The position numbers and the translations under genes are program-made. 41,368 bases of DNA from a virus. The notes beneath the pieces were generated by a model, which saw only the letters and a program-made list of their open reading frames with translations, did no database searches and was not told the DNA's origin. Shown here one piece after another: positions 1 through 19,300 of the stretch (positions are counted from its first letter, which is position 1; each line of letters begins with the position of its first letter). The stretch is from IMG/VR virus record IMGVR_UViG_3300012012_001148, positions 1 through 41,368 of that record. One strand, given 5' to 3'.

Positions 1-3000
1 GCCATGTAATAGGATACGCAACCCCATTACCAACGGTTATCAATGTTATGTTACCAATGTTGCCATCAAATGGTGGATTACTAAACGTAAAATTAGTTAT
101 TGCAGCATTTATTGTTACTACAAATATATTACCATTATCTAAATTCAAATCTAAATTTCCAGGAGGACTAACAATACCTGCTGTTGTGTATTTTTCTTGA
201 TAATCAACAAAAGTTGGTGTGTATACGAATGAACCACTACTATGATAAACACTGCCGGATATTATTAAGTTTCCTGTATTTGGTCTTATTGTTTGAACAG
301 CAAGAGCTTGATTTACCGTTGTAGCATTTAAGTCCGTTGTTCCTGATACTATTAAACTTCCTGTAACTGTTAAATTTAGATCAAAAGTTGCTTCTTTTTG
401 AACATTCATACTTGATGAAACTACAAATCGTGTAGGACCAGTTTCTAAATATAAATTAGCAGATGCAGTAGCTGCATTTGTTGTTCCGTCTGAAAGTAGT
501 ATTCTTCCTGTTAATGGACTGTTTATTGTAGAAAATCCTGTTCCACTTGTTCCGCTACTACCATTTGCACCAGAAGTTCCCGATGAACCAGAGGCACCTG
601 CAGCACCAGAAGTTCCCGATGAACCAGAGGCACCTGCAGCACCAGAAGTTCCACTTGAACCAGATGCACCAGCGGCACCAGAAGTTCCTGATGAACCAGA
701 AGTTCCTGATGAACCAGATGCACCAGCGGCACCAGAAGTTCCACTTGAACCAGATGCACCAGCGGCACCAGAAGTTCCACTTGAACCAGATGCACCAGCG
801 GCACCAGAAGTTCCACTTGAACCAGATGCACCAGCGGCACCAGAAGTTCCACTTGAACCAGATGCACCAGCGGCACCAGAAGTTCCACTTGAACCAGATG
901 CACCAGCGGCACCAGAAGTTCCACTTGAACCAGAAGTTCCTGATGATCCGTTAGCTCCAGATGTTCCTGATGAACCATTTTGGCCACTTGTACCCGAACT
1001 ACCAGAAGTTCCACTACTTCCACTTGAACCATTTGCTCCAGATGTTCCAGAAGAACCAGATGTGCCTGATGAACCAGATGTTCCCGAACTTCCAGAAGTT
1101 CCAGATGAACCAGCTGCACCCGATGTTCCTGATGAACCTGAATTACCAGATGTTCCAGAACTTCCAGCAACAGAAGCAGTTGTTAATATGTTACCGATTG
1201 AATCGAATGCCAAATAACCAGTAATTGTTCCGGTAAATTTACCAGATGAATTATAGTTTGGAAGTTGTAATTGACCTGTTGCATGATTTATTTGTAAATC
1301 AACTGCATTACTTGATAAATCATTACCTTTCAAAATTCTAAATGCATCTTGATAATTGTCTATCATGGATGCAGTATTGTGATTCGTTGCCTTTTGTAGG
1401 AATAATTGGCCACCCTCTGTTGTGCTTCTTGCACCTAAAAATAAATTTCCTTCATTAGATATATTGGTTGTTCCAATACCAACTGTAATTCCATTTTGAT
1501 TATTAGATTGTGATACTATCAAAAATGTTGATGCAGTTGCTGCAGTTGTTGTTCCATCACTAAATAAAACTCTTAAATTGCCAGCATTATTTATCGTAGT
1601 AAATCCAGTTCCACTTGTTCCAGATGAACCAGATGTGCCTGATGAACCTGCGGCACCAGAAGTTCCTGATGAACCTGCGGCACCAGATGATCCTGATGAA
1701 CCAGATGTGCCGGATGAACCAGATGCACCCGCAGCACCAGATGATCCAGATGAACCGGATGTTCCCGATGAACCCGAACTACCATTTGCTCCAGATGTCC
1801 CACTACTACCACTTGTTCCAGATGAACCAGATGTTCCGGATGAACCTGCGGCGCCAGAAGTTCCACTTGTTCCAGATGTTGCTGCCGTATAACTTGTTCC
1901 GTTTATTATTAACGAACCAGTTATTGCCATTGAACCGGTTACTTGATGTAAGTCATCGTATGAATTACCAAATTTTGTTGAACCACTTTGGAAAATTATT
2001 GATGATGAAACAAATTCTGTATGATATTCTTCAGCGGTCAATCTGCCTGTAATAACTGCATTACCTGTTACAGTAAGAGTTGAACCGTCAAATGTTAAAT
2101 TTGTTTCAGCTACCGCTGCATTTACGGTTCCATCCGAAGTAAGTATTCTATTATCCGATGCATTTGAAATTGTTGTAAAACCAGTTCCACTTGTTCCGGA
2201 TGAACCAGATGTCCCACTACTACCGTTAGCACCAGATGTTCCAGAACTTCCACTTGTTCCACTACTACCAGAAGTTCCCGATGATCCTGATGTTCCAGAA
2301 CTACCAGACGTTCCCGATGAACCTGAAGTTCCGGATGAACCGTTAGCACCAGAAGTTCCACTACTACCAGAAGTTCCTGACGAACCAGCTGTTCCAGAGG
2401 AACCCGAGCTACCATTTGCACCGGATGTTCCTGATGATCCAGACGTTCCACTACTACCAGAAGTTCCTGATGATCCTGATGTGCCCGATGAACCGTTGGC
2501 ACCAGAAGTTCCACTACTTCCTGCAGTTCCTGATGTTCCACTTGTTCCAGAAGAAGCTGCGGTATAACTTGTTCCGTTTATTATCAGGTTACCAGATATA
2601 TCTAATGAACCAGTTACACCGTAAGAACCACTTAATTGTTTTGTATGTGTCCACAAACTTGCACTATAAATTAGTAAATCGCCGTTACTAACGCCAGTTG
2701 TGGAAACATTATGCAATTCATCTAATTCATAACCGTTATCTATCTTTACATAGATAGAACCAACGGTTGCATGCACTCTTTCAACATACCCCAATGTTAC
2801 GGTGTGTTGTGGTGCAATAGGTTTAGTTTCGGAATACTGTCCAGATGAACTTAAATATAATAGGGCACCTTCGGTTAAACCAACGGTATTTAATTTTTCT
2901 AATACACCGTTTGTAATAACAAAACCTTCAGCACCACTTGCAATACTTTCAGCAACAAATCCTATTGTGGTCGATGAACCTTGTTCACCAGAATAATCTG

Positions 3001-3349
3001 CAAGTTTTGCTGCAACACGATTGCCTTGTGATCCTGAAATATAAACAACTTGCCCTTTATTTAGTGTTGTTGCTTCTGCATTATAGACACGAGCGTATGT
3101 CTGTTGTCCTAATAGTAAATTTACATTTCCACCCTTTAATCCTAAATCTATTGATCCGTTTCCATCATCCCATACCATTCTACCTGCAGCATTAGCAGCA
3201 GGTGATGCCATGTTAAAATCAACATTATCAACATTGGTAATTGATCCACTCATGGTAAGTGAACCGGATATGATGGATCCATTTGATGCAGTTACAGATG
3301 AAAGATGTGCCTGACTTCCACTAACTATTATTTTTTTCCAAGTAGACAA
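1..3349 (-). CDS. Collagen-like tail fibre protein, 3'-truncated by window
   Basis: The frame is open from a TTG codon at 3349 to the window edge, at least 1116 residues, with no stop seen. The start is chosen because an in-frame stop lies just upstream, no ATG fits, and GGAG sits 7 nt before the TTG. It also gives an N-terminus (STWKKIIVSGS) like that of the fibre starting at 10455 (ATWKKLIVSGS). An N-terminal beta-rich region is followed by three Gly-X-Y blocks (about 2557-2190, 1884-1612 and 1167-541) made of GTS/GSS/GAN/GAA triplets with almost no proline. These are separated by non-repetitive modules, one with an FGNSYDDLHQVTGS motif shared with the 513-aa fibre. The last visible residues (TVGNGVAYPITW) resemble the end of many phage fibres, so little is probably missing. 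Likely role: a long trimeric receptor-binding or side fibre. The downstream position after two glycosyltransferases suggests it is their substrate. Confidence 0.8.
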   Translation of the reverse strand, partial: MSTWKKIIVSGSQAHLSSVTASNGSIISGSLTMSGSITNVDNVDFNMASPAANAAGRMVWDDGNGSIDLGLKGGNVNLLLGQQTYARVYNAEATTLNKGQVVYISGSQGNRVAAKLADYSGEQGSSTTIGFVAESIASGAEGFVITNGVLEKLNTVGLTEGALLYLSSSGQYSETKPIAPQHTVTLGYVERVHATVGSIYVKIDNGYELDELHNVSTTGVSNGDLLIYSASLWTHTKQLSGSYGVTGSLDISGNLIINGTSYTAASSGTSGTSGTAGSSGTSGANGSSGTSGSSGTSGSSGTSGSSGTSGANGSSGSSGTAGSSGTSGSSGTSGANGSSGTSGSSGTSGSSGTSGSSGTSGSSGTSGSSGTSGANGSSGTSGSSGTSGTGFTTISNASDNRILTSDGTVNAAVAETNLTFDGSTLTVTGNAVITGRLTAEEYHTEFVSSSIIFQSGSTKFGNSYDDLHQVTGSMAITGSLIINGTSYTAATSGTSGTSGAAGSSGTSGSSGTSGSSGTSGANGSSGSSGTSGSSGSSGAAGASGSSGTSGSSGSSGAAGSSGTSGAAGSSGTSGSSGTSGTGFTTINNAGNLRVLFSDGTTTAATASTFLIVSQSNNQNGITVGIGTTNISNEGNLFLGARSTTEGGQLFLQKATNHNTASMIDNYQDAFRILKGNDLSSNAVDLQINHATGQLQLPNYNSSGKFTGTITGYLAFDSIGNILTTASVAGSSGTSGNSGSSGTSGAAGSSGTSGSSGTSGSSGTSGSSGTSGANGSSGSSGTSGSSGTSGQNGSSGTSGANGSSGTSGSSGTSGAAGASGSSGTSGAAGASGSSGTSGAAGASGSSGTSGAAGASGSSGTSGAAGASGSSGTSGAAGASGSSGTSGSSGTSGAAGASGSSGTSGAAGASGSSGTSGAAGASGSSGTSGANGSSGTSGTGFSTINSPLTGRILLSDGTTNAATASANLYLETGPTRFVVSSSMNVQKEATFDLNLTVTGSLIVSGTTDLNATTVNQALAVQTIRPNTGNLIISGSVYHSSGSFVYTPTFVDYQEKYTTAGIVSPPGNLDLNLDNGNIFVVTINAAITNFTFSNPPFDGNIGNITLITVGNGVAYPITW
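541..1167 (-). repeat. Collagen-like Gly-X-Y block C of the terminal fibre
   Basis: About 209 residues of uninterrupted triplets dominated by GSS, GTS and GAA/GAS. Ser or Thr fills most X and Y positions, so if these sites are O-glycosylated this is the densest acceptor region of the fibre. Proline is essentially absent, so stability would not come from the proline-rich chemistry of animal collagen. Confidence 0.85.
741..932 (-). repeat. Five perfect 36-bp tandem repeats inside the fibre gene
   Basis: Copies start at 741, 777, 813, 849 and 885, are identical over 36 bp, and a partial sixth begins at 921. A further isolated copy begins at about 651. Each unit encodes 12 residues (four Gly triplets of the GSS-GTS-GAA-GAS type). 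A related 36-bp unit is duplicated at about 569-640. Base-level identity, rather than only amino-acid similarity, points to recent duplication by slippage or recombination. Copy-number change keeps the reading frame and would alter fibre length in 12-residue steps. Confidence 0.93.
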
Positions 3350-3356
3350 AAAGTAG

Positions 3357-3360
3357 CTCC
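3357..3360 (-). promoter_or_regulatory. Ribosome binding site deciding a TTG start
   Basis: GGAG lies 7 nt upstream of the TTG at 3349. No in-frame ATG or GTG exists between this site and the conserved fibre N-terminus, and an in-frame TAG lies a few codons upstream, so the TTG is the only sensible start. Confidence 0.75.
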
Positions 3361-3382
3361 ACGATTTATATGAATACTGCTA

Positions 3383-3390
3383 TAAATATG
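3383..3390 (-). promoter_or_regulatory. Putative promoter box CATATTTA before the collagen fibre gene
   Basis: On the sense strand the gap reads CATATTTATAG, 34 nt before the TTG start. The same eleven bases occur before the fibre gene starting at 12020, and near-copies precede 10455 and 30814. A TTG lies 14 nt upstream, a poor spacing for a -33 element. The call rests on recurrence of the motif, not on a match to a known consensus. Confidence 0.4.
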
Positions 3391-3395
3391 TAGTT

Positions 3396-5486
3396 TTATG
3401 ATTTCAATAACTTTTCTACATGGGGTTTTACCATGTCAAATGTTATTGTTTTAGTGCATTCAAATTGTCTATCCGTTCCCTTATGTTCAGGACACCAATT
3501 CCAGTCTCCCCTATCAAAATGATGTTTAGCAAAACACCCGTTACACACATTGCGATTTATTACACGGATAATATCGGTGGTCATTTCCTGCCATGGTTCT
3601 GAAAATCCACTTATTAGAATTGTTGGCACATTTAATGCCCAAGAATACCAAGTCAATCCACTTCCTAATCCAACAAAAAATTTGGCACCTTTAATTATTG
3701 AACCCAATTCTTCTAATGATTTTCCACTAACTTTAATAACACCCTTTGGTTGTCTATTACCCATAAACCCATCTTCTTCTTTGGAAACCAAGTAAACATC
3801 ATAACCATTTGATTTTACATAATCAACTAATTCTTGCCATCCAGTTGGATTATTCCAATACTTTGCTTGAGCGGTTGAGTGAGTTGCAATACAAATATAC
3901 GGCGTTTTTGATTGATAAACTGGTAAATCCTTTACTTTTGGTTTTATTTCTTTATAGTCTAAACCAATAATGTCCGTAATAGTTTGTTGTAATGGGATTT
4001 CATTTGCTGGATTTATATGTAAATTTTCATCAAATTTCTTATCAGCAGTATAATACCATCCAATTTTGTAAGCAACATCAAAATCAAAAAAGTTTTCAAT
4101 CTTGTCCACAAAATTAACTTCTGGATAAACATCCCTAAAAAGATTATTATGGAACGTAAATGCATAAGTTTTACAATTATACTTTTTCCTAAATTCATCA
4201 ACATACGGAATCCAAGCCAGTGTATCACCAATAGAAGATGAATCAAAATACAGTAAAACTTTTTTATCTTTTAAGTCTAAATTATTTTCTATTACGTTAT
4301 TTTTTGAATCAGTTATTACTATTTTCCATTTAACAAAATGCCTTTTGTTTGCCCTTGCCCAAGAATTTGTTGATACATTTGTATCATATACTACGTTATT
4401 ATGTAATGTATCAATAAATTTAATGTTGTAATTTTCATTGACTTGTCCTGTTATCTTAACATTTGGACCATCTATGAAATGAAATTCTATTATATTATCA
4501 TATTTTATTCTTTTTACTTTATCGTATATTCTTAATGCAGTAGTTTTCATATCGGTTTTTGATATTCTTTCATACATAGTGTTTAATTTAGCTACAACAT
4601 TTTTCCAATCAAAACTCTTGACACTATCTATTGTTTTGTTTCTTTCTTCGGTGTAATTGTCAATAACGTATTTTATTTTATTAACAACATCATCTACATC
4701 TCTATCTACCATTGTTGTATGTAAATTACCAGAACAATCAGTTGTTATTACTGGCAATCCAGATGCAGCCGCTTCTAATATAGTTAATGGTGGATGACCA
4801 GCTTCTATGCTTGTTGCATGAACTAATATACTATGTGTTCTGTATATTTCTTTTAATTCATCAGGTGTTGCATCATATTTGATTTCAACATTTGGTCTTA
4901 ACAAATTTTTATATTTTTCAAAAAAGTTTTTATTATTGTCACTTGGACCAACAATAGTAATTGGTAAATTTAATTTTGTTGCAGCTTCTATTGCATACTT
5001 AAATCCCTTTCTATCAAAAAATATATTACCGCTTATTCCATTGTTACCAACACATAACAATTTATGTTTGTTTGTTAGTTCATTCTTTTCATAATAATCT
5101 AACGATACACCATGTTCCAAGTAGATAGGAAACCCATCAAAGTATTCAACCATATATTCTGCCGGAACTATTGACAATTCTGCAAGTTTCATTGCAAGTA
5201 AATTATCTTGATATATCTTATTGTCTTTACCATTTACATATAGATTGTGGTCATGGCAAGTAAATATGTATGGTATACCCTTTTCATATAACTCGATAGC
5301 ATGATTCCACATATGAACGTGAACAATATCATACTCACCCTTATTTATTTCATTTACATATTTGATGTCTACATTGTGACCTAATTGCACAAGTTCCAAA
5401 TAATAATGCCACATTATTTTCTCAACAGCACCCCAATTTTTTGGTGGAATTTCCATGTGACCGGGATTTATTTGAGCAATTTTCAT
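3396..5486 (-). CDS. Fused glycosyltransferase: GT4 domain plus TibC/Aah-type O-heptosyltransferase
   Basis: A 696-residue two-enzyme protein. Residues 1 to about 310 are a GT-B fold of the GT4 type, starting KIAQINPGHMEIPP and carrying an EAGHPPLTILEAAASG-type nucleotide-sugar motif. Residues about 335-430 form a beta-rich segment (FIDGPNVKITG). The rest matches the bacterial autotransporter O-heptosyltransferase family (Aah, TibC), with SIGDTLAWIPYVDEFRKKY near residue 430 and an iron-finger cysteine set at C648, C651, C665 and C677 inside the WCPEHKGTDRQFEC block. In that family the enzyme transfers heptose from ADP-heptose to serines of repetitive beta-solenoid proteins. The gene overlaps its upstream partner by 4 bp (ATGA), so the two are probably translationally coupled, and it ends 47 bp before the start of a Ser/Thr-rich fibre. 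Sugar and acceptor are inferred. Confidence 0.85.
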   Translation of the reverse strand: MKIAQINPGHMEIPPKNWGAVEKIMWHYYLELVQLGHNVDIKYVNEINKGEYDIVHVHMWNHAIELYEKGIPYIFTCHDHNLYVNGKDNKIYQDNLLAMKLAELSIVPAEYMVEYFDGFPIYLEHGVSLDYYEKNELTNKHKLLCVGNNGISGNIFFDRKGFKYAIEAATKLNLPITIVGPSDNNKNFFEKYKNLLRPNVEIKYDATPDELKEIYRTHSILVHATSIEAGHPPLTILEAAASGLPVITTDCSGNLHTTMVDRDVDDVVNKIKYVIDNYTEERNKTIDSVKSFDWKNVVAKLNTMYERISKTDMKTTALRIYDKVKRIKYDNIIEFHFIDGPNVKITGQVNENYNIKFIDTLHNNVVYDTNVSTNSWARANKRHFVKWKIVITDSKNNVIENNLDLKDKKVLLYFDSSSIGDTLAWIPYVDEFRKKYNCKTYAFTFHNNLFRDVYPEVNFVDKIENFFDFDVAYKIGWYYTADKKFDENLHINPANEIPLQQTITDIIGLDYKEIKPKVKDLPVYQSKTPYICIATHSTAQAKYWNNPTGWQELVDYVKSNGYDVYLVSKEEDGFMGNRQPKGVIKVSGKSLEELGSIIKGAKFFVGLGSGLTWYSWALNVPTILISGFSEPWQEMTTDIIRVINRNVCNGCFAKHHFDRGDWNWCPEHKGTDRQFECTKTITFDMVKPHVEKLLKS

Positions 5487-8155
5487 ATTTCAAATTCCTT
5501 AAATTTCTTATCATAACCATCTATATCAGACTTACCTTCAAATTGAGTTACTATTGTTTTATTTGATACACATAAATTAAAATTATTACTTTGTGATATA
5601 TTGCTCAAATAACAATCAAGAGCATCCCATTTTTCTTTTAATAAAGCATTTTTTATTCTTTTACGAAAATGTTTTGGAATAATAATACATTGACAACCTA
5701 TTATTTTATCACAAATAAAAAAATCATCGGACAATTTTTTGATGTCATTGGATTGTAAATATCCGGATTCTAAATCATATATTCCACCAAATGAAATTAA
5801 ATCTACCAATTCTTTATTACATAATTCCAAAACTTCTTGTAATTTTTTAATAAACAAATCCATGTTTGATATTTTTGCATCGCCTTCAAAAACAATAAGT
5901 GCATCCAAATTTGAATCAAATTCTGACAGAACTGCATTTTTGAATGATTCATAACAACCATAGTGACCCGGTGTTAATGCGTTTTGTTTTAATTCTTTAC
6001 TAACATCATGTGGTCTATTACATTTTGAAATTGGTGGCAAATCAATATATTTGTCATTGTAATGTTGTACATACACTATACCATAAGATTGAATTGGCGA
6101 TATGTTATTTATTGATTTATTCTGTTTATCTATGTTATCATTTAGCAAAAATTGCACTGCCTTTATGTTATTAAACTTTTTTTTTTCGTCTCGAACAAGA
6201 TATACTGTACCAACATCACTGGATTCATAAGTTTGTGTTATATCTGTATTTTCACTTGTACTTTGATCCCTTATTTGGTTTAGTACAAAACCATGTGATA
6301 GTATTTTCTCTATCATTCTTTTTGTTTTACCATTGATATTACTATGAAATTCTATTAAAAAAGAATCAGTCATATCGAAAATCCAATCATCCAAATTTTC
6401 AATAATATCATATTCAGCACCTTCAATATCCATTTTTATCAAACCAATTCTCTTTATATCTTTATTTTGAATAAATGTTTTCAATGATATTGCAGGAACA
6501 GTTATTTCCTTTGGTATTGCATGAGGACTTACGTGATCTTTTGATATTGAACCTATTGTTGAATTATTTTCACTTATGTAGAATGTTAAATCTTCATCTT
6601 TTGTGTAGACTGCCTTTTCAACTATTTCATAGTCACTATGTTTATGTAGTATTGAATGTATATTTTGTATAGCATTAACATTTGGTTCAAATGCATAAAC
6701 ATTTTTACAACCACTATTCAATAGATATAGTGAAAATAATCCATTATTTGCTCCTATATCAAAAACAGTATCTATATCTTTTATACCGTAACAATCATAT
6801 TGACCATTGACAAACATTTCATTGTAATTGAAAAATATACAATCAAATGGATTTGATAAATTTAATTTTACATTTCGTCTACCATTTGAATTTTTAATTA
6901 CAAGTTCTTTTGAAAATAATAATTTATCATCTGGAGAATAAAACTCAAATAAAAATCCTCTAAAACTATCGTCTTTCATAAAATCATAAACTCTTTTTGG
7001 GGTTGGTATAGTCCAATATGAATTTTTATTTTGAAATACCGCATCAAACCAATAAATAGGAACATTAGAGTCAATATCTTTTATTGATATTTTTGTTTCC
7101 AATCTACTTGAATCAAGATATTGAATTTCTATTTTATTTTCATTATCAATAAATTTTAGATTAAATGCAGTTGCCATGTCAAAGTTAATACTATGTTGTA
7201 TGCCCAATTTGTTACAAATACTTCTCATATTTTTATACAAATCATCAAAGTCCAAATAATCTATATTATCATATTTGTCATACATATTCAAATAAACGGG
7301 CAAATTGTAAATCAACGAAGGCATACCATATCCTATTGCCTCTCGGATTACTAATGGACTAGTTTCTTTATCCCCATTTGTTCCTCTTGATGTAAATAAA
7401 AATAAATCCATACAAGAATAAAAATTATCAACATCGCCTCTTTCACCCCAAATTTTTACATTAGGAGGACAATCATTTAATAGTGGTTGCCAGTATGATC
7501 TAAAATTGTCTGCCTGATTACCTATAAAATGAAATTGTATAGGATAATCTATAAGTTTTTTGGCATAATCAAAAATTTCAGCTTGATTTTTTCTTGATGT
7601 GAATAAACCAACATTCAAAACGTGTTTTAGATTAGGATCCAACCCTAATTTTTTTAGACCTTCTTCTCGGTTTTGTTTTTCTTTATACTCAATATCAGCT
7701 TCAAGTATTGTTATCGGTATATTTAATTTTGAAAAATTTTGTCTTTGATATTCGGATATAAGAGCAAAATAATCTGGAAAATATAATTTTTTTGTATAGT
7801 CAAAAGAAGAATCGTGAGAAGTTTCTATGATTTTATATTCTCTTTCAATTGAATACAATTTATTTGCAACAAATCTATCCATAAAAAATTCCGGCATTTC
7901 TTGAAGGTGAACTATATCCGGATTTATTTCCTTGATTATTTTATTCAATTCAGTTTTTTCATTTTTTAATGAATAAAATTTATTACCAAGAAGATTCACT
8001 ATTTGTTTTCTTTGAACAACAAATATATCCGCTATCATTGAATACTCAATACAATAGACATCCACCTCAGCTTTTATTTTTTTAATGAGGGATAATGTAT
8101 ATTGTGGTAGACCACCCGTGGAAAGATGTGGCACAATAAACAAAACTTTTTTCAC
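5483..8155 (-). CDS. Trifunctional sugar enzyme: GT4 + FkbM methyltransferase + GT25-like domain
   Basis: An 890-residue fusion. Residues 1 to about 310 are GT4-like (KKVLFIVPHLSTGGLPQYT; NVGLFTSRKNQ; ETSPLVIREAIGYGMPSL). Residues about 325-420 are a beta-rich linker reminiscent of the one in the next gene. Residues about 445-655 are an FkbM-family SAM methyltransferase, with VFDIGANNGLF at 464-474 and MDIEGAEYD at 575-583. Residues about 690-890 look like a GT25-type (LPS/collagen glycosyltransferase) domain with VFEGDA at 755-760 in place of the usual acidic EDD-type motif. The GTG start at 8155 is supported by AAGG 7 nt upstream, and its stop overlaps the start of the heptosyltransferase gene. 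Likely role: building, extending and O-methylating a glycan, cytoplasmic because no signal peptide or membrane segment is visible. Domains 1 and 2 are secure; the GT25 assignment is less so. Confidence 0.8.
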   Translation of the reverse strand: MKKVLFIVPHLSTGGLPQYTLSLIKKIKAEVDVYCIEYSMIADIFVVQRKQIVNLLGNKFYSLKNEKTELNKIIKEINPDIVHLQEMPEFFMDRFVANKLYSIEREYKIIETSHDSSFDYTKKLYFPDYFALISEYQRQNFSKLNIPITILEADIEYKEKQNREEGLKKLGLDPNLKHVLNVGLFTSRKNQAEIFDYAKKLIDYPIQFHFIGNQADNFRSYWQPLLNDCPPNVKIWGERGDVDNFYSCMDLFLFTSRGTNGDKETSPLVIREAIGYGMPSLIYNLPVYLNMYDKYDNIDYLDFDDLYKNMRSICNKLGIQHSINFDMATAFNLKFIDNENKIEIQYLDSSRLETKISIKDIDSNVPIYWFDAVFQNKNSYWTIPTPKRVYDFMKDDSFRGFLFEFYSPDDKLLFSKELVIKNSNGRRNVKLNLSNPFDCIFFNYNEMFVNGQYDCYGIKDIDTVFDIGANNGLFSLYLLNSGCKNVYAFEPNVNAIQNIHSILHKHSDYEIVEKAVYTKDEDLTFYISENNSTIGSISKDHVSPHAIPKEITVPAISLKTFIQNKDIKRIGLIKMDIEGAEYDIIENLDDWIFDMTDSFLIEFHSNINGKTKRMIEKILSHGFVLNQIRDQSTSENTDITQTYESSDVGTVYLVRDEKKKFNNIKAVQFLLNDNIDKQNKSINNISPIQSYGIVYVQHYNDKYIDLPPISKCNRPHDVSKELKQNALTPGHYGCYESFKNAVLSEFDSNLDALIVFEGDAKISNMDLFIKKLQEVLELCNKELVDLISFGGIYDLESGYLQSNDIKKLSDDFFICDKIIGCQCIIIPKHFRKRIKNALLKEKWDALDCYLSNISQSNNFNLCVSNKTIVTQFEGKSDIDGYDKKFKEFEI

Positions 8156-8162
8156 GAAACCA

Positions 8163-8166
8163 CCTT
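8163..8166 (-). promoter_or_regulatory. Ribosome binding site supporting a GTG start
   Basis: AAGG (within AAAGGTGG) lies 7 nt before the GTG at 8155. The GTG-initiated N-terminus KKVLFIVPHLSTGG is a typical first beta strand of a GT4 enzyme, so nothing is missing upstream. Confidence 0.65.
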
Positions 8167-8182
8167 TATATTTTAGATAATA

Positions 8183-8914
8183 CTATAACCCAAATTCCGA
8201 TTTATCGAAATTGTAATTTTGTAGGACTTCTGCCGAAGTTAAACTTCGATTGTAACAATATACTTTAGCAATTCTACCGTTAAGAAGATTTCCAACACCA
8301 AATGATGCAATGTTTGTAGAATTATTACCGGTATGGGCAGTTTTTTGTGCAGTATATGTGCTGTCTTGTGCACCATTGATATACAAAACCATACCATCAG
8401 TAGTATTAAATGTAAGCGTTACATTATACCAAGTGCTCAAACTAATAGTTGCAGTTGATGGGTATGCTTGATAATTTCCCCAATTGGAATGACCCGAATA
8501 TATTTTAGTGCCACCGGCCATATACATAAAATGCCCACCTGTATCACTACTGACAAGGTTATTATCGGCATAACCATTCAAATAAAACCAAACTGATTTT
8601 GTGTATGTTGTTGTTGTTAAAACAGCACCACTACCAGTTCCTCTTTGTGTTGAACCATTAAATGTAAAATATGACGGTGTTCCTGAAGTATATGTTGGTG
8701 AATTTACAAGAGTTATATTTTGTTGTGTCCCTGCAATATCTGTCCAAGTTGTTCCACTTCCACCGTAAGATGTAGCATTTCCAGCATCCAATCTTAAAGT
8801 AAGACCGTCAGTAACAAGTGAAACCGATTGTATGATTGTAAGTCCACCCAAACCACCAGTGTTAGTTAAAGTCAAACTACCGTTTCCACCATTATTTGAA
8901 AGTGTCAAACTCAT
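8183..8914 (-). CDS. LamG / concanavalin-fold tail protein
   Basis: 243 residues. The first 30 are a low-complexity beta segment (SLTLSNNGGNGSLTLTN). Residues about 35-235 are a LamG/ConA-like jelly roll, with GLTLRLDAGN opening the domain, FTFNGSTQRG, WYNVTLTFN, GMVLYINGAQ and the closing GRIAKVYCYNRSLTSAEVLQNY helix. Such domains bind carbohydrate or build virion decoration and fibre tips in phages. It has no signal peptide. The ATG overlaps the stop of the small upstream gene by ATGA and lacks its own clear Shine-Dalgarno site, so it is probably translated by coupling. Its position between fibres and the glycosylation genes fits a virion adhesin. Confidence 0.75.
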   Translation of the reverse strand: MSLTLSNNGGNGSLTLTNTGGLGGLTIIQSVSLVTDGLTLRLDAGNATSYGGSGTTWTDIAGTQQNITLVNSPTYTSGTPSYFTFNGSTQRGTGSGAVLTTTTYTKSVWFYLNGYADNNLVSSDTGGHFMYMAGGTKIYSGHSNWGNYQAYPSTATISLSTWYNVTLTFNTTDGMVLYINGAQDSTYTAQKTAHTGNNSTNIASFGVGNLLNGRIAKVYCYNRSLTSAEVLQNYNFDKSEFGL

Positions 8915-9090
8915 TGAATGTATAACTGTTGAAGTTTGTAAACAAGGTCATATACAACTTGAACTTCTTTGCCCTTGAATGTGCATTCAGAAACTAATTT
9001 TAATAAAAATTCCAGCTCCTCCTTTGAAAAGGGAGGAGCTGGATTATTTTCTCTTTGTTTTAATGAATTTTCTTTATTTACTAAACCCAT
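8911..9090 (-). CDS. Small conserved-looking phage protein of unknown function
   Basis: 59 residues from the ATG at 9090. An upstream in-frame ATG at 9114 (67 residues) is less likely, because it has no Shine-Dalgarno site and lies only 2 nt past a promoter-like box, whereas AGG sits 7 nt before 9090. The protein is charged and helical, with a core of KEELEFLLKLVSECTFKGKEV followed by VYDLVYKLQQ; I have the impression of similar short proteins in other tailed phages but cannot name a family or function. The PAPPF...EELE codons double as an 11-bp GC-rich hairpin (separate entry). It overlaps the LamG gene by 4 bp. Confidence 0.6.
   Translation of the reverse strand: MGLVNKENSLKQRENNPAPPFSKEELEFLLKLVSECTFKGKEVQVVYDLVYKLQQLYIQ
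9011..9043 (-). terminator. Intrinsic-terminator-like hairpin inside a coding region
   Basis: CCAGCTCCTCC and GGAGGAGCTGG form a perfect 11-bp stem (12 with the flanking T-A pair) around a 9-nt loop. Read on the coding strand it is followed by AATTTTTATT. It is by far the most GC-rich inverted repeat I noticed in the window and lies in the middle of the 59-aa gene. The 3' arm contains AAAGGAGGAG, a near-perfect Shine-Dalgarno sequence that the fold would hide. It may attenuate transcription into the LamG and glycosyltransferase genes, or it may be a translation or RNA-processing signal. Confidence 0.5.
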
Positions 9091-9116
9091 AATATAACCT
9101 ATAATTTTTCGCATAA

Positions 9117-9147
9117 CAAATATAATGATTTTTACTAATATATCAAA
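9117..9147 (-). promoter_or_regulatory. Putative promoter TTTG-N19-TATATTTG
   Basis: The sense strand carries TTTG (9147-9144), 19 bases, then TATATTTG (9124-9117). This equals the Bacteroidota vegetative consensus TTTG-N19-TAnnTTTG. A start site a few bases downstream would exclude the ATG at 9114 and give a leader of roughly 15-20 nt to the ATG at 9090. In an AT-rich genome chance matches are possible, but both spacing and sequence fit. Confidence 0.5.
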
Positions 9148-9153
9148 GCAAAA

Positions 9154-10455
9154 TTATGAATAAATCCAAATTTCACCGTTGTTTGAATTTACAAAAATAG
9201 TTCCAAATCCATTGGCACCACCGTAAACAGGATTTGAAGCAGGACTTACACTTCCTTCTTGTATAACACCCATGAATGCATCAGGAGCAACAGAAGTTAT
9301 AGTTGCAATATCTGCATTATTTTGAAGTGCCCAACGGTCTGCACTTGCATCAACAGCGAGAGCATATGCAGAAGTTGCACCTTGTTGAACCAATATACCG
9401 CCATCGGTTGAAGCATCTGAACCTGATGCAAATAGAGCAAATTTGTCTTCAACTAAAAGATTTGTTGTATCAAGTGTTGTTGTTGTTCCATTGACCGTCA
9501 AATCACCAGCAACTGTAACATTTGCACCATTAAGAGTAATAGCAGTTGTATTATCACTTGCTTTAATTTGATTACCGGTAACTTTTAGATTACCAGCAAC
9601 AGCAACATCACCTGTTCCACTAAATGTTAGGGCGGTTGTTCCACCATTCATCTTAATATCATTACCACCAACAGTAATATCACCTGTTAAAGTTACATCA
9701 ACAAATTGTGGACTGTCTCCTGTTTGTAGACCTGTATCAACATCCGTATTTACACCGTTAATAGTTGCACGAACTGTGCCTTGTGAAGGTGAAGTGAATG
9801 ATGAACCACTAACTGTTCCGGTTGGAAGAGCGGATACAACACCGGTTGTAAATGTTGTTGATGCCGTGTCAAGTGTAATGTTTGGTGTACTTCCTTCGCC
9901 CGTTGTTGCAGATGATACAAGAGCACCAGATGCAGATACAGTAGCAACATAATTACCAGTTGTGTCTGTTCCAAGAGCAACAGAATTAGCTTGTATTGTT
10001 GCAACTCCAGTTGATGCATCTATAAGAATGTCACCACTAACACCGGCATAAGATGATGAATTAAAGAATGTTTGTAATGATCCAGAATTAACAGAAAGAC
10101 TATCAGTTGCTTCTACGGATAAACCACTACCAGCAAGGTCTGTTAATAAATTTTGCCATGTAATTTGTTTATTACCGGTGGTGTTGTTTGATGCATCATC
10201 GTTGATAAAGAATTTTGTGTTTGTGCTATTAACTATATCAGTTAATGCAGTAGTAGGAAATGTTGGTGTTGCTGTTACACCTGTTAAACCAGTTCCATCT
10301 CCTACAAAAGAACCTGTGAAAGAACCAGTCAATCGGGTATTTGCTTGCGTTGTTTGGATTTGTTGATTAGCACCGACTAATACGCCAACTGAAGCACTAA
10401 CCGATGCTAATTCGGCTACACTACCCGATACTATAAGTTTTTTCCACGTTGCCAT
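9154..10455 (-). CDS. Beta-rich tail fibre protein
   Basis: 433 residues. The ATG has GGAG 7 nt upstream. The N-terminus ATWKKLIVSGSVAEL matches that of the collagen fibre starting at 3349, suggesting both attach to the same virion partner. The middle consists of short beta-strand repeats rich in G, T, N and V (LTGDITVGGNDIKMNGG, VAGNLKVTGNQIKASD, VAGDLTVNGTTTTLD), the pattern of a trimeric beta-helical fibre shaft. The C-terminus (NNGEIWIYS) is short and aromatic. Comparable proteins occur as tail fibres in T4-like phages, but I cannot assign a specific name. The following gene starts 40 bp downstream behind its own promoter-like box. Confidence 0.65.
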   Translation of the reverse strand: MATWKKLIVSGSVAELASVSASVGVLVGANQQIQTTQANTRLTGSFTGSFVGDGTGLTGVTATPTFPTTALTDIVNSTNTKFFINDDASNNTTGNKQITWQNLLTDLAGSGLSVEATDSLSVNSGSLQTFFNSSSYAGVSGDILIDASTGVATIQANSVALGTDTTGNYVATVSASGALVSSATTGEGSTPNITLDTASTTFTTGVVSALPTGTVSGSSFTSPSQGTVRATINGVNTDVDTGLQTGDSPQFVDVTLTGDITVGGNDIKMNGGTTALTFSGTGDVAVAGNLKVTGNQIKASDNTTAITLNGANVTVAGDLTVNGTTTTLDTTNLLVEDKFALFASGSDASTDGGILVQQGATSAYALAVDASADRWALQNNADIATITSVAPDAFMGVIQEGSVSPASNPVYGGANGFGTIFVNSNNGEIWIYS

Positions 10456-10478
10456 TTAATTCTCCAAATTTGAGTTGT

Positions 10479-12020
10479 TTATATGAATAAATATAGATTA
10501 CTTCCTGAAATCACTAAACTACCTGTTGTATCTAACACAGGTAATTGATTTGTTGTTGGTAATACAAACTTACCTTCAACATTTAGACTACCACTAATAT
10601 AAGCAGATCCAGTAAATGCCATTGTATCTGCATTAAAAAATGAACTACCAGTTACCGATATTGAACCCGTAAATTGATGTGTGTCATCCAAAGTATCACC
10701 AAATTTTGATGAACCAGATGCATAAAGAGTTTGTATATTTACAACCGAAGATGAAACTACATAAGTTCTTGCAGTTATAGTTCCACCTACTAAAAGATTT
10801 CCGTCAAAATTTGCATTAGTTGCATAAAGAGTATTAAATCTAGGTGAGTCACTTTCAGCTAAACCCAATACTCCTCTTTGACCAGAACCAGAAATTATGT
10901 TTGTTCCAAATAAATGAGAAAGAGTTTGGGTTGAACTCGATACTATACCACTTGGTTTGTTTAATATATTATCCCAATAAACACTACCACTCAATTCTCC
11001 GTCAGTAACAAATCCTAAATCTTGAATTTGCTGTGATGAAGATATAACACCAGAAAATATACCACTAAAAAGTGGAGCAGTAATTGTTCCTTGTGATGTT
11101 AATGAACCACTTAAAAATAATGAACCAGTAAATTGGTGTGTATCATCTATTGTATCACCAAATTGTGTTGAACCGGACGCCTTTATAGATTGTATATCAA
11201 CTATGGATGATGATACTACATAAGTTCTTGCAGTGAGAGTTCCATCAATAAATGCATTACCATCTATTGTTAAGTTGCTACCAGATATGTTACCGAATAC
11301 AACATTATCGGATGTTCCTAATCCAATAGAACTTCTTTGATTAGAAGAAGAAACTATACCTGTTCCACCCAATACTTGAACTGAACTTGATACAATACCA
11401 CTTGGTTTATTTACAATTTCATCCCAAACACTTGAAGTGATAAACCCAAAATTTTGTATTTGTTGTGATGATGATATTGTTCCAGCAGCAACAAGATTAG
11501 TCAATCCACTACCATCACCAACGAATGTTCCATATACTGATCCAGTAATATAAACTGAACCAGTAAATTGGTGTGTATCTAACACATCATTTCCAAATAT
11601 GTTTGAACCACTACTGAATGATTGAGTTACGTTGATTACCGATGATGAAATAATTAACTGTCTGGCAGTTAAATCACCAGTTAGAGTAAGATTATTGAAT
11701 GTTGGCGAGTCAGTTGTAGCAAGTCCAAGAACGCCTCTTTGAGCAGAACTTGATACAATACTTGTTCCAACAAGATATGTTAGTGTTTGAGTAGAAGATG
11801 ATACTATGCCACTTGGTAGAGCAGCTGCACCAATGTTTGTTAGTTGTGAACCGTCACCCTTAAAATAATAGGCATCTACGGTTCCAGATACAGCAAGTAA
11901 CGTAACAAGAGATCCAGTTCCGTCAAGAAGTGTTGAGTCATCAACAGGATCCGTTTGAAGTAATCTATAATAAGATTCGGAAACAAATAGATTGGTTAGG
12001 TCTCTTTGTGAACTTGGCAA
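10479..12020 (-). CDS. Modular beta-helical tail fibre protein with three internal repeats
   Basis: 513 residues from a TTG start at 12020. The overlapping upstream ATG is out of frame, and a GAGAG stretch precedes the TTG. After the N-terminus (PSSQRDLTNLFVSESYYRLL) the protein holds three modules of about 145-154 residues. Each contains PSGIVSSS (69-76, 206-213, 356-363) and a DTHQFTGS motif (about 148-155, 293-300, 447-454). The related motif DDLHQVTGS appears in the collagen fibre starting at 3349, so fibre modules have been exchanged or duplicated. High Ser/Thr content and no cysteine-rich or catalytic motif suggest a structural shaft. Confidence 0.65.
   Translation of the reverse strand: MPSSQRDLTNLFVSESYYRLLQTDPVDDSTLLDGTGSLVTLLAVSGTVDAYYFKGDGSQLTNIGAAALPSGIVSSSTQTLTYLVGTSIVSSSAQRGVLGLATTDSPTFNNLTLTGDLTARQLIISSSVINVTQSFSSGSNIFGNDVLDTHQFTGSVYITGSVYGTFVGDGSGLTNLVAAGTISSSQQIQNFGFITSSVWDEIVNKPSGIVSSSVQVLGGTGIVSSSNQRSSIGLGTSDNVVFGNISGSNLTIDGNAFIDGTLTARTYVVSSSIVDIQSIKASGSTQFGDTIDDTHQFTGSLFLSGSLTSQGTITAPLFSGIFSGVISSSQQIQDLGFVTDGELSGSVYWDNILNKPSGIVSSSTQTLSHLFGTNIISGSGQRGVLGLAESDSPRFNTLYATNANFDGNLLVGGTITARTYVVSSSVVNIQTLYASGSSKFGDTLDDTHQFTGSISVTGSSFFNADTMAFTGSAYISGSLNVEGKFVLPTTNQLPVLDTTGSLVISGSNLYLFI
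10488..10495 (-). promoter_or_regulatory. Putative promoter box TATATTTA
   Basis: TATATTTAT on the sense strand ends 33 nt before the ATG at 10455 and overlaps the last codons of the upstream fibre gene. No convincing -33 element is visible. It belongs to the six-member ATATTTRT set. Confidence 0.35.
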
Positions 12021-12032
12021 TTATTCTCTCTC

Positions 12033-12068
12033 ATAGTGTGTATGTCTTGATAAATACATTCTCACTAT
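12033..12068 (-). other. Imperfect inverted repeat in the leader of the 513-aa fibre gene
   Basis: ATAGTG (12033-12038) pairs with CACTAT (12063-12068). A further G-C and ATGT/ACAT continue the stem past two T/T mismatches, around a 10-nt loop. It has no following T-run, so it is not a terminator. It partly overlaps the promoter-like box and could be an operator or a leader hairpin; the evidence is the base pairing only. Confidence 0.3.
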
Positions 12069-12075
12069 AAATATG
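12068..12075 (-). promoter_or_regulatory. Putative promoter box CATATTTA before the 513-aa fibre gene
   Basis: The sense strand reads CATATTTATAG, identical over eleven bases to the element before the fibre gene at 3349, and lies 48 nt before the TTG at 12020 in the 66-bp gap. A TTG lies 22 nt upstream. Confidence 0.4.
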
Positions 12076-12086
12076 TAAAAGATTTT

Positions 12087-15000
12087 TTATCCCATTACAA
12101 TTACAGTAAACTCCAAAACAGTGGGTATATTAGCAAATACTAATTCTATATTATTGTTATCGGTATGTGTTGCTGTATAAGGTTCAGTTGCATTTCCAGG
12201 ATAAAAAATTTCTTCATTTCCACCATTTTCACGAATACATACCATTACATTTTTATTACCAAATGCATGATTTATTGCAAACGTATCATTTATACCATTG
12301 CCAATTGAAACGGTATATTTTGAAAATGATACACCACTTGTTCCACTCGTTCCACTATTACCAGCAGTTCCGGATGTTCCGTATGTTTGTCCAGATGTTC
12401 CAGCAGTTCCGCTATTTCCAGATGATCCACTACTTCCAGATGAGCCAGCAAGTCCTTGTATACCCTGAACACCAGAAGTTCCAGATGTTCCATTATTACC
12501 AGCAGTTCCAGATGTTCCACTACTACCAGATGTACCCGAACTTCCTGCATCTCCCGTTATTCCACTTGTTCCACTACTTCCTGATGTTCCTGAACTACCA
12601 GATGTTCCAGATGATCCTGATGTTCCAGATGAACCAGAACTTCCATTTTGTCCTGCAGTTCCTGAAGATCCTGATGTTCCTGATGTTCCATTGAGAGCTG
12701 CAAGACTAATTTTCCAAATGTTATATGTGCCAGAGCCAACAGTTTCAGAAACTTCAATTACAATTTGTCCTGTACCGGAGTTATATGAAGTTACCGAACC
12801 ATACATTTTATTACCAGCATCGTATACAGCAACAACATCTTGTCCTGTAATATAAGCAAGTCCTGTTTCAACGGTAAATGTTTTAGATCCTGTTCCAATT
12901 GAAATTGATGTAGTTGATGATGTTGAGTATCTATCGCCTGATTGACCAGATGTTCCACTTGTTCCAGATGATCCGCTTGATCCGGATGTTCCACTTGAAC
13001 CAGATGTTCCATTTGAACCAGACGTTCCACTTGAACCATTTGCTCCAGAAGTTCCTGATGTTCCATTTTGACCAGCAGTTCCAGATGTTCCATTTTGACC
13101 AGCAGTTCCAGAAGAACCCGATGAACCAGATGTTCCGCTACTTCCTGCAGTTCCAGATGAACCAGATGTTCCACTACTTCCTGATGTTCCAGATGAACCT
13201 GAACTTCCACTACTTCCCGATGTTCCAGATGAACCAGGTAATCCAGTTTCACCTTTTTCACCAGATGTTCCACTTGTTCCAGATGAACCTGAACTTCCAC
13301 TACTTCCAGAAGATCCAGTTATACCACTTGAACCAGAAGTTCCAGATGTTCCATTTTGACCAGCAGTTCCAGATGTTCCGTTTTGACCAGCAGTTCCACT
13401 ACTACCACTCGAACCGGATGTTCCACTACTTCCTGATGTTCCAGAGGAACCAGATGTTCCGCCACTACCTTGTGGACCAGGAGCACCTGACAGTGATATA
13501 TTCCACGATGTATATGTTCCACTTCCGGTTGCAGTTGTCACATTGATAACAAGTTGACCAGTTCCACTATTATATGATGTAACGGTGCCTTCCATTTTAT
13601 TACTACCATCATAAGCAGCAATAACATTTTGTCCAATACTTAATTGTAGACCAGTATCAACAGTGAATGTTTTAGATCCTGTCCCAATTGAATTTGATGT
13701 AGTAGATGTTGTGGTATATCTATCACCGGAAAGACCAGATGTTCCATTATTACCAGCCGTTCCACTACTACCGGATGATCCTGAAGATCCTGATGAACCT
13801 GGATTACCCTGTATACCACTTACACCAGATGAACCAGATGAACCACTGGATCCATTAACACCCGAAGTTCCACTACCACCGTCTGTTCCAGCTGTTCCAG
13901 ATGAACCCGCAACTCCATTAAATCCAGAAGATCCAGATGATCCACTTGAACCAGAACTTCCACTTGTTCCAGAGTTTCCACTTGTTCCATTTGTTCCAGA
14001 AGTTCCAGAGTTTCCACTTGTTCCAGAGTTTCCACTTGTTCCAGTTGTTCCAGAAGTTCCGGATGTTCCGGATGTTCCATTTGATCCACCACTACCACCA
14101 CCACTTGTAGAACCGTTTATTATGGCATTTTGTATTATTACACTACACCCATCCCATTTGATATATGATTCACCGCAAGTTCCGTTATTACAACTACCAC
14201 CGCCACCAGCAGTAGCACTACCAAAAATTGGATTGTATGAACCACTCCATCCCAAAAGAAATTCTGAACTTGAACCCAATATAAACAAATCAAAACTAGA
14301 TGGTGTTGATCCAAAATTAAACGTTGAACCACATTCGTTTATCATGTTTACAGAATTTTGTGAGAATGCTCCATCAGGTTGATTATATGGATTACCATTA
14401 GTTAAACCCCAACCAAAATTTGATGAAACATTTGGATTATTTATAGCATTTTGAACACCTTGATATTGATACGGATTTATTGCAGATCCAGATGTAACAG
14501 CAGAAGAATTGTTTGCAAATAATTGAACACCGCTCGAAGTATTCTGTGAAAGAAACATTGAGCCGGTCATCACATTGTTATCGCCTTGAATATAATGATT
14601 TCCACCTTCAAAGAATACATCATTAACAGTTGTTTCAGCGTTTGATTCTCTCAATGTATCATTGAAGTATTGTAATTTTATATCCATATATTCCAATTTA
14701 TGATTTTGATCAACAGGAACATAAAGTGTGGTTCTTTTTGGAGTAAATCCAAATTCTACTGTTTCTTTTACTTCAATATCTTGTAAAACTACACCGGTAT
14801 TTGTTAAAAATCTTAATTGGCCGTATCCATCATTATCTGGAATTACACTTAATTTATTATTGAGAAGAAACTGATTATCAAGATTTTGTATTGGTATTGA
14901 TCCTATAAATTTACCAAATTCAGAATCGGTTTTGAAAGCATCTCCAACTGCATATATTTCAAGAATTGGTGCCCTTTTGTCATTGCCAGGTCTATATCTA

Positions 15001-16307: not shown

Positions 16308-16308
16308 C

Positions 16309-19300
16309 CTATGTCTCTATTTTGGAAAATCCATTTTCTTTTTTAATCTCAATATGATTGTCCACCATGTCACGAACACTATCTATATGTGATATAAGTA
16401 TTACAAACTCAAATTGTGTTTTCAAATACTCCATGAACAGCGAGAAGTTTGCCATAACTGTTGGATCAAGAACACCCAATCCTTCGTCTATCGCAATAAA
16501 GTTTGGTCTCGGTAAAGACGAAACTTGTATCAATGCTGTTCTTATGGCAAGTGATGAAATAAATTTTTCCATACCACTTGATAATTCCAAATTCCAAAAA
16601 CGGTCATTGTCATATACTATGTATGTATTGATACTCTTTCCGTCTGTATCAAACAGAACTTGGAAATCAACAACATTTGCCAATATGTTATTTGTTTCCT
16701 CTTGAATACTTGGCAAAGCATTACTTATCAATTCATACGGAACACCGTTTCTATTTACCGCCTTCAAATAATAATCGTATGCTTCATATTCTTTTTCAAG
16801 GTCTTTCAACTTTTGTATAGATACTTCGCATTCGTCTATTACTTTTTCACTAACCTTTACATTACCACTATACTCTAAAATGTTTTCATCAATTTTTTTC
16901 AATTCAAATTTTGATAGAGTATTCTTTTCATTTTGTAATTCATCAATTTCTGATTGAATTTTATTATTTTGATTGATAGCATCTTCATTTTCTTTATACT
17001 TCTCAATCTGAATATCAATGTTTCCTATTTCATCTTCTATCTTTTTTTGTTCTTCTTTTGCAGAAAATATCTGTTTTTCTACCGAATATATTTGTTTCTC
17101 ATATTTGAAAGCACTATTTTCAAGAGAATGTAATTTTTCTAATTCAGAGTAAACGAATGAATTTTTTGTAAATTCATCATTCAAATTATTTAATTCAAAA
17201 TTTAATTCATCTCTGTCTTGTTGAAATCCCCAAATCTGTGATTTTGATCTTTCTGCATCCTTAACAAAAACATTATTTACACAAAACTCACAGTTTGGAT
17301 CATATTCATGGTCTTTCAAATTATCAATTTTATCCTGACAATGTTGGACTTTTAACTTTACACTACGCAAATCAGCTTCGAGTTCTGTTATTCTGTTCCT
17401 AACAATATCAATTCTTTCTTTTCTTTCCATAAGAGTTTCTTTATCAAACTCTTTTGTCAGTCCAATATACTTTGTGTGTGATGTCTTAGCATCATCTAAC
17501 TCGTTTTCTAATGACTTTATTTCATTCAATAAATCATTACCTTTTCTATCTAATAAATATCTCTTATCCAATAATGATTGGACAGATTTTGAAGAAAAAT
17601 TGTCTGCAATCGGTATTAGTTTTTTATTTAATTCCGAAATGGAAACTGTTAATTTTTCAATTTTTTTCTCAATATACCCCTTCTGGTCAGTTGTTTCTTC
17701 CAAAAGTATCGTATTTGTTTTATGACTAGCCATAGCATCAGACAACTTGGTTGAGTAATCATGTTTCTTAAATTCTTTTACCAATGCCTGTAATCCCTTT
17801 ACTTCATCAGTAGCGATACTATTTAGTTCCTCGAATAGATTTAAGTCAAAGAATTGTGCCAATAAATCCTTTCTATCCTTTTGTGCCTTATCAACAAAGT
17901 TTGTATTATTACCCTGCAGTGACATTGCAGTTAGAACAAAATCATCATAGGTTCCAATATACTTCCGTATGGCGTAATTAGTTCCATCACGGTCTTCACC
18001 GTTGAGTGATACCAAGTCACCGTTTTCTTCATACCAAAAATCTACATTAACTTTTACATTTCCTTTCTTTTCTTTTGTAGCAACTCTCTTTATGTAAAAG
18101 TTTTTATCACCAATCATAAAATGTAGTTTACATTGGAAATTTTCTTTTTTATTATTTAGAACTTGTGCCGCCTTAAATGTCCTTGAACACTTATCGAAAA
18201 GACAGAACATAATTGCATCAAGAACAGAAGACTTACCACTAGCATTCGGCGCAAACAATCCGTATATCCCATTCATTCCATCAAATTGTATTTTATTACC
18301 CTTTCCGTATGAAAACATATTTTCAAATTCAAATGAAATTGGTTTCCACACAAGGTTACGAACAACATCACTTTCGGATAATTTTGTATTTACATTTCTA
18401 TTGATACCTCTAATCTTTTCAAGTATATCATCTGTTACCCCAAACTTATCATTTACATAATCGGTAATCAATTTGTTTTGATATTCTATATCACGAATTT
18501 TACCAATAGGATTTACTTTCGTTTGAACATTACCATTGCTTGAACCAACGAGATGTTGTGTTCTAATGTCTATCACATTTGTCAATGACTTTAATTCAGT
18601 CATTATTTGATTAACTTCTGAATGTGGTGTGTTTGTTATACGCAAACGAATTGAATTATACTTTGTCCACTTTGTTGGCAACTTTTTAATTTTACCATTT
18701 TCAACATCAATCGTATGATATGACCAATCATTTTCAATTTCAATAAATTTTGATTTCTTATTTTTAATATCCCATTCAATTATACCATGAACCAACCCTT
18801 CGCCGTAATTTTGTTGTATGAGTGAACCTGCATAAGCAAACTTTCCATCAACATCGAGATATTGAAACTTATGAATATCACCAAACATTCCATAGTCAAA
18901 CCCATCGAACATTTCAATCTTTACATCATTGTGTTTCATAAGAACACCGGCATCAGTTGATGCCCTATCAACAGGTCCGTGATACAATACTATTTTTGTT
19001 CTATCACCTTGAACATCATTTGCTAAAATAAAGTCTTTTGGATTTTCATAAACAGAATTAAGAATAAAATCAACATTCTCCAATGAGTATACACCACTTT
19101 GTTTCAAATAAAATAATTCATTAAAATCACTATCAATCATGGAAACAATTGGTGAAAGCGCATCCATTCTACTCATATTATTTAGGTTACAATCGTGATT
19201 ACCAGCAATCAAAATTGTTGGTGCAATCTTGGAAAGAGTATCAAGCAATTCCGTTACCATATCAACAAGTTCTGGTGTCATATCTGTTTTAGCATGAACA

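Follow-up and report, generated by a model that had tools for sequence, protein, structure and literature searches.

How can the stalk of a phage fibre change while the tip at its end is kept? The question is raised by fibre A, a gene for a collagen-like fibre at the start of a stretch of DNA from an uncultured phage. The stretch, called the window throughout, was analysed at its full length of 41,368 bases and corresponds to bases 1-41368 of the 55,989-base virus record IMGVR_UViG_3300012012_001148. In a first-pass annotation, identical 36-bp repeats at 741-932 in a fibre gene had been taken as a recently expanded length-variation locus. The follow-up described here makes it likely that the repeat array is the newest part of a stalk that grows and shrinks by slippage or unequal recombination while the tip is kept. 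The parts of the gene that carry this argument are:

2-3349, minus strand: fibre A gene, with a TTG start and its 3′ end cut by the contig edge at base 1
536-1165, minus strand: stalk 3, 70 collagen triplets, home of both period-36 arrays
710-934, minus strand: exact period-36 tandem array of 225 bases, 189 matching positions and 6.25 copies, the unit encoding GAAGASGSSGTS
734-913, minus strand: five base-identical units in codon register
567-652, minus strand: second exact period-36 duplication, 86 bases, 50 matches, 2.4 copies
644-679, minus strand: sixth identical unit, separate from the array
680-697, minus strand: 18-base half-unit insertion, identical to the adjoining (second) half of the unit at 698-733
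2180-2548, minus strand: stalk 1, 41 collagen triplets
2-535, minus strand: C-terminal tip, incomplete, with 95-97% DNA identity to the related loci L106, L107 and L108 (loci of related viral contigs are numbered with an L)

The repeats annotated at 741-932 lie inside the longer exact run at 710-934, and the second duplicated unit reported nearby was recovered as the run at 567-652. The count of five units is correct for base-identical units in codon register; counted free of register, a little over six are present. The unit at 698-733 departs from the identical units by 3 bases, and stalk 3 as a whole contains duplications of several sizes, namely exact runs at shifts of 36, 54, 90 and 126 in addition to the 18-base half-unit. 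The reading frame stays open across the array, whose flanks grade into diverged units. In order to compare the array with chance, synonymous codons of the same peptide were resampled in 20,000 trials, applying the codon usage found in the remaining collagen tracts of the two window fibre genes. The longest run at a shift of 36 was 189 positions in the observed sequence, compared with a median of 14 and a maximum of 41 in the resampled versions. The identity therefore resides in the DNA and not in the protein alone, which points to recent expansion or homogenisation and bears out the recent expansion proposed at first.

In the other five collagen tracts of the two window fibre genes the longest exact run is at most 36. 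Tract statistics were compiled from 98 of 171 viral-contig loci (91 contigs), the remaining 73 loci being omitted because no collagen tract was seen there, and the window was added for the length and array counts. Among the resulting 358 collagen tracts the longest exact array has two or more copies in 202, three or more in 23 and five or more in 3. The array at 710-934 is the second-longest exact run in this set and the longest with a unit below 171 bases; it is an extreme member of a common class. An exact search of the viral contigs for the 36-base unit gave no match, and no very near strain of the window was found in the viral-contig searches, which possibly do not cover very near records.

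The 36-base unit corresponds to four collagen triplets and preserves the frame, as the first-pass annotation stated, and a locus for phase variation by frameshift was rejected for this reason. Fibre A thus holds exact tandem repeats beyond chance with a unit that is a multiple of three bases, the combination expected of a length-variation locus. Collagen rises by 0.286 nm per residue, so that one unit would lengthen a straight stalk by about 3.4 nm.

The stalks of related phages differ from that of the window beside a conserved tip. Tip DNA is 96.6% identical to the window in both L106 and L108 and 95.1% identical in L107, whereas the stalk adjoining the tip in these three loci consists of mostly 27-base units, GSSGATGTS with GNP-bearing variants, in place of GAAGASGSSGTS. 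In L196, GAAGASGSSGTS blocks are found within a 99-base higher-order unit, on a contig that stops ahead of any tip. Three different units have thus spread in three lineages, in what looks like one and the same stalk. Lengths differ as well. Between the same bordering sequences stalk 1 measures 363 bases in the window and 534 bases in L195, a difference of 171 bases or 19 triplets, with 93.1% identity in the aligned part and 87% in the flanks. In the pair formed by 3300032293_001351 and 3300042154_001728, two tracts differ cleanly by 234 and 243 bases (26 and 27 triplets), and the remainder of these tracts is 99.4-100% identical. Differences in stalk length between related phages by whole triplets were therefore seen (171; 234 and 243 bases), with exceptions of 151 bases (L193/L194) and of -6 bases in one tract.

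L195 holds the upstream part of such a fibre gene and overlaps L106 by 262 identical bases. Joined, the two give a stalk 3 of about 82 triplets compared with 70 in the window, a length that is provisional due to the fact that the overlap falls in repeats. L106 and L108 are 99.985% identical and L195 is identical to L106 across the overlap; all three probably represent one phage population. L195 and L108 come from sample 3300021962 and L106 from sample 3300021961, and the 48.8-kb and 49.9-kb contigs that share a sample probably represent two pieces of a single phage genome that was split within the stalk. Five distant relatives were found in genome contigs of metagenome bins assigned to Sediminibacterium, Flavobacterium, Aestuariivirga, Acidobacteriaceae and Chitinophagaceae, and may be phage contigs placed in these bins.

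These observations would be explained by turnover of the stalk through its DNA repeats. The stalk would join an N-terminal virion anchor to the C-terminal tip, and replication slippage or unequal recombination between the DNA repeats coding for Gly-X-Y triplets would lengthen or shorten it. Since unit lengths are multiples of 9 bases, each change would gain or lose whole collagen triplets, four of them with the 36-base unit, without loss of frame. As related phages diverge, different units would spread in one stalk, so that its sequence and length would turn over beside a tip that is kept. Stalk length, in turn, may set the reach or the spacing of the tip.

The speed of such change was addressed by a comparison in which each tract was flanked by shared unique 25-mers, giving 58 tract comparisons in 27 contig pairs. 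It replaced a first comparison by flank BLAST (14 of 99 ordered pairs differing) in which differences of -63 proved unsafe on re-alignment; the -63 cases are still listed by the 25-mer comparison. A length difference was found in 11 of the 58. Several results weigh against the turnover reading. Where the flanks are near-identical, length was equal in 32 of 33 tracts and in 197 of 198 control segments, so that among near-identical phages no excess of tract variation over other DNA was found (1/33 differing compared with 1/198). Where the flanks are diverged, length differences occur in 10 of 25 tracts and in 27 of 88 control segments, again with no clear excess. The only difference with near-identical flanks, that between L193 and L194, lies out of frame in a neighbouring collagen gene, and its 151 bases are not a whole number of triplets. 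Within the 10 others, three cases of -63 with the same partner contig are doubtful, since one of them was re-aligned and the tract itself proved equal; a 108-base difference of another pair was resolved by re-alignment into scattered gaps only; and four (-6, -36, 90 and -144) stand without re-alignment. In addition, the swap of a whole stalk by recombination would likewise leave a conserved tip beside a different stalk, and the proline-free composition of the stalks described below makes the stability of a triple helix without modification uncertain. Few tracts hold an array as exact as that of the window, and tracts that failed to assemble are unseen in this test.

Taken together, the proposal of length variation stands for related phages, in which lengths differ mostly by whole triplets beside a tip that is 95-97% identical, and is not supported as far as rapid change within a population is concerned. 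The comparison of strains that had been suggested as a check gave the same divided answer: the stalks of relatives differ and are built from other units, and near-identical phages keep their tract length. These alignments suggest that stalks can change in triplet steps between phages some percent apart, with no sign of exceptional speed between near-identical phages.

How many units the window contains depends on the assembly, and an assembly free of collapse, which the first-pass annotation had left to be confirmed, is not a safe assumption. Stalk 3 of the fibre A gene is found on six further contigs, recognised by a tip identity of at least 63% (L106-L109) or by the upstream genes (L195 and L196), and every one of them ends inside stalk 3. 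Since L106, L108 and L195 are probably one population, the six represent about four independent lineages. In a search with the tip, 35 of 38 loci had a collagen tract adjoining the tip match, and the tract reached the contig end in 11 of the 35, among them all four loci with a tip identity of at least 63%. The pattern is not general, because 24 of the 31 more distant matches with an adjoining tract span it and 7 end in it. Overall, 30 of 79 contig ends fall in a collagen tract, compared with 9.1 expected from base content and with 15.3 expected from positions 100-2000 bases off the same ends (p = 9e-5); selection of loci close to collagen introduces a bias that the latter control removes only partly. 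We attribute the contig ends in stalks to repeats that defeated the assembly. The unit count of the window is consequently uncertain, and the length comparison probably contains too few stalks with long arrays. The existence of an array is likely; its exact number is not safe, and the error may lie in either direction.

It is nonetheless unlikely that the array itself, or its copy number, was created or collapsed by short-read assembly. The contig ends just described, which exceed both expectations, and the six broken contigs of stalk 3 are what such an artefact would leave behind, and the 151-base difference between L193 and L194 resembles a misjoin. It likely is one, and the two loci (L193 7960-9239 and L194 14889-16319) were seen to be 99.85% identical over 8.4 kb yet 151 bases apart in the collagen tract. 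An artefact does not account, however, for the open frame through the array and its graded flanks, for the many distant tip matches that span their tract, or for similar arrays of other units in other contigs. Somewhat less improbable, though still not expected, is a hypermutable contingency locus at which fibres of mixed length in one phage stock tune reach or glycan load. Exact in-frame tandem DNA repeats of 36 bases would suit such a locus, and mixed genotypes are described for a collagen-like gene of a virophage in the passages of PMC7242381 that deal with it. The equal lengths in the near-identical comparisons speak against it, though few of those tracts hold so exact an array.

A more serious competitor, which has a real but less than even chance, is modular exchange, in which whole stalks or blocks of stalk and domain are swapped at low-complexity collagen DNA and the array is a by-product within a swapped block. 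The gene family offers several signs of it. Stalk 2 and the middle domain are extra to the window, their place in L195 and L196 being taken by a short linker, and the middle domain has a single relative, L144, at 70% identity. L007-L009 have an N-terminal part with 87-89% protein identity, no collagen and other C-termini. The domain that follows the anchor also varies among the window, L193-L195 and L196. Exchange alone, however, accounts neither for the six identical 36-base units, of which five are contiguous, nor for the 19-triplet difference in a stalk 1 that is otherwise alignable. Both exchange and repeat turnover probably act, and turnover of the stalk through its repeats is still the preferred explanation of the array.

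The remainder of fibre A bears on what the stalk carries and where it is fixed. From the N-terminus the protein consists of an anchor peptide, a decoration-fold domain, three collagen-like stalks, the middle domain and the tip; the parts not listed above are:

1604-1873, minus strand: stalk 2, 30 collagen triplets
2723-3124, minus strand: capsid-decoration-fold domain, model residues 76-209, from an AlphaFold model and structure comparison

The protein matches Pfam Collagen PF01391 at 1.7e-54 (181.8 bits, cut-off 27.2), and Gly-X-Y periodicity extends over long stretches, as is expected of a collagen-like fibre. Proline is missing from all 138 stalk triplets, in which the X position is held by Ser (53), Thr (51), Ala (32), Asn (1) and Gln (1) and the Y position by Ser (113), Ala (16) and Asn (9). 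The complete tip of the relative L106 matches the tail fibre PHROGs 9017, 7760 and 22179, and several relatives of the N-terminal part in phage records bear a tail fibre annotation; on these grounds fibre A is a collagen-like phage fibre whose non-collagen ends are fibre-related. It is probably the fibre of a tailed phage and a trimer, the stalk presumably forming a trimeric triple helix. Open frames on the plus strand opposite the collagen repeats (window 547-954 and others) could pass for genes and probably arise from the composition of the repeats.

Attachment to the tail is more likely than to the head. In the single-chain AlphaFold model the folded domain after the anchor has pLDDT block means of 82-94 from residue 81 to 200. 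That fibre A is instead a capsid head fibre, with this domain on the capsid and the collagen stalk standing off the head, is improbable, although the domain resembles capsid decoration proteins of Haloferax virus HFTV1 (8qsy, Z 11.6, 112 aligned, rmsd 3.4) and cyanophage Pam3 (8hdt, Z 10.8) as well as the base of the phi29 head fibre (6qyy, Z 6.6), structure matches with Z under 8 being weak on their own. A weak sequence match to the head decoration family phrog_122 (E 0.0082) points the same way, and the tip matches a capsid spike (9ny6, Z 7.8) beside a tailspike (Z 7.5). The fold is also present, however, in phi29 gp12 (3gqh, Z 8.0), which we take to be a tail appendage. Furthermore, L193-L195 have another domain in place of this one and L196 lacks it, with the anchor motif retained in each, which makes the anchor peptide the stronger candidate for the attachment part. 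Tail fibre families are matched by the tip, although one further match carries the label virion structural, in the category head and packaging; the window itself contains baseplate genes. Among the 50 BFVD matches listed for the domain most are from uncultured phages and six are labelled collagen triple helix repeat. A profile search of the N-terminal domain against PDB sequences gave nothing useful. The model of the tip, likewise a single chain, is poor over its first 119 residues (mean pLDDT 54.1), and its best Foldseek match has an E value of 2.4e-3.

Both genes upstream of fibre A that are listed first below were identified by Pfam as glycosyltransferase genes:

3396-5486, minus strand: glycosyltransferase 2 (groups 1 and 9)
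5483-8155, minus strand: glycosyltransferase 1 fused to an FkbM methyltransferase
12087-16307, minus strand: fibre B, another collagen-like fibre, lacking a long exact array

Beyond the glycosyltransferases follow genes for a lectin-like protein, a 433-residue protein and a 513-residue protein, fibre B, SbcC-like and primase genes, and baseplate genes. The gene order from fibre B to fibre A is largely kept in L194-L196 and partly in L193 and in Microcystis phage Mel-JY01. The 433-residue protein (window 9154-10455, minus strand) and fibre A start with a common motif, WKK[IL]IVSGSxAxLxxVxAS, which is likely a common virion anchor. A looser form of this motif occurs at two places in L007, L008, L009, L194, L195 and L196.

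Of 67 loci with 20 or more collagen triplets, 14 have homologues of the two enzymes, compared with 0 of 99 loci with fewer (Fisher p = 1.2e-6); these 166 loci, from which those of the glycosyltransferase search and L144 were excluded, are not independent, since related ones were left uncollapsed and several lie on the same contig or are near-identical. L193 and L194 possess the enzymes even though the adjoining fibre is without collagen; a collagen gene comes after that fibre. The position of the enzymes beside the fibre and their co-occurrence with collagen-rich loci are unproven hints that the stalk may be glycosylated, and from the same two observations the number of glycans, proposed earlier as a variable, might change with the repeats. 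A fuller version, in which both glycosyltransferases place sugars on the Ser/Thr-rich, proline-free stalk, the sugars replace hydroxyproline and the repeat number sets reach and sugar load, is unlikely as a whole. If the enzymes do act on the stalk, this would explain how a collagen without proline could hold together. A literature search found no paper joining phage virion glycosyltransferase, glycosylated tail fiber and collagen.

Going by its title, a study by Sylvestre from 2003, cited in PMC5434927 and PMC13188886, reportedly found that polymorphism of the collagen-like region of BclA changes filament length in the Bacillus anthracis group; as far as that title indicates, the likeness lies in the collagen-like length polymorphism, BclA being a bacterial spore protein, unlike the phage protein fibre A.

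Among viruses, collagen-like repeats separate domains of Streptococcus thermophilus phage antireceptors in some cases, according to the relevant passages of PMC5601072. As in fibre A, the repeats there lie between domains of a protein for host recognition, and they have been proposed as recombination hotspots; those phages are, on the account given there, cultured and were studied experimentally, whereas the present phage is uncultured, known from sequence alone and carries an exact 36-base array. For the Guarani virophage, the passages of PMC7242381 on the collagen-like gene ORF8 describe 27-nucleotide repeats, an 81-nucleotide deletion and two genotypes in one stock, confirmed by PCR, and cite Desiere 1998 and Bruttin and Brussow 1996 for collagen-like repeats as recombination hotspots of phages. 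Mixed genotypes were thus seen, on that account, in a virophage; the window belongs to a tailed phage known here from assembled sequence. Phages of freshwater Ca. Nanopelagicales have a genomic island, variable in metagenome recruitment, that comprises part of a tail fibre gene together with two collagen-like proteins and is tied by the authors to host recognition, in the section of PMC10202952 concerned with it; the variation described in that section is by read recruitment, without resolution to repeat number. Pelagimyophages, aquatic myoviruses, have structural proteins with triple collagen repeats that are putative receptor-binding proteins, encoded in a structural operon with baseplate genes, and the portion of PMC7029224 on these proteins reports no arrays or length variation.

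Microcystis phage Mel-JY01 (PP395634) has a baseplate protein 69.7% identical to that of the window and a similar gene order, with a collagen gene and an FkbM/glycosyltransferase gene. Its longest exact array is 2.04 copies of 54 bases in the examined parts of the record (1-20000 and 182000-190001). In this record (PP395634.1, L097) the collagen matches at 1-2298 and 9361-9898 are on the plus strand, and hypothetical genes are annotated on the minus strand; one plus frame is open through the first collagen stretch and the second stretch is split over two frames. No paper was found in a literature search on phage Mel-JY01.

Collagen-like repeats are already known as spots of variation in viral genes, and the array of the window is a striking new example. 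Contigs frequently break off within stalks of this type, so that truncated fibre genes of uncultured phages may be common in databases and may conceal real variation in length. Fibre A offers a clear case in an uncultured phage of a fibre tip that is kept while the adjoining stalk is rebuilt from different DNA repeats.
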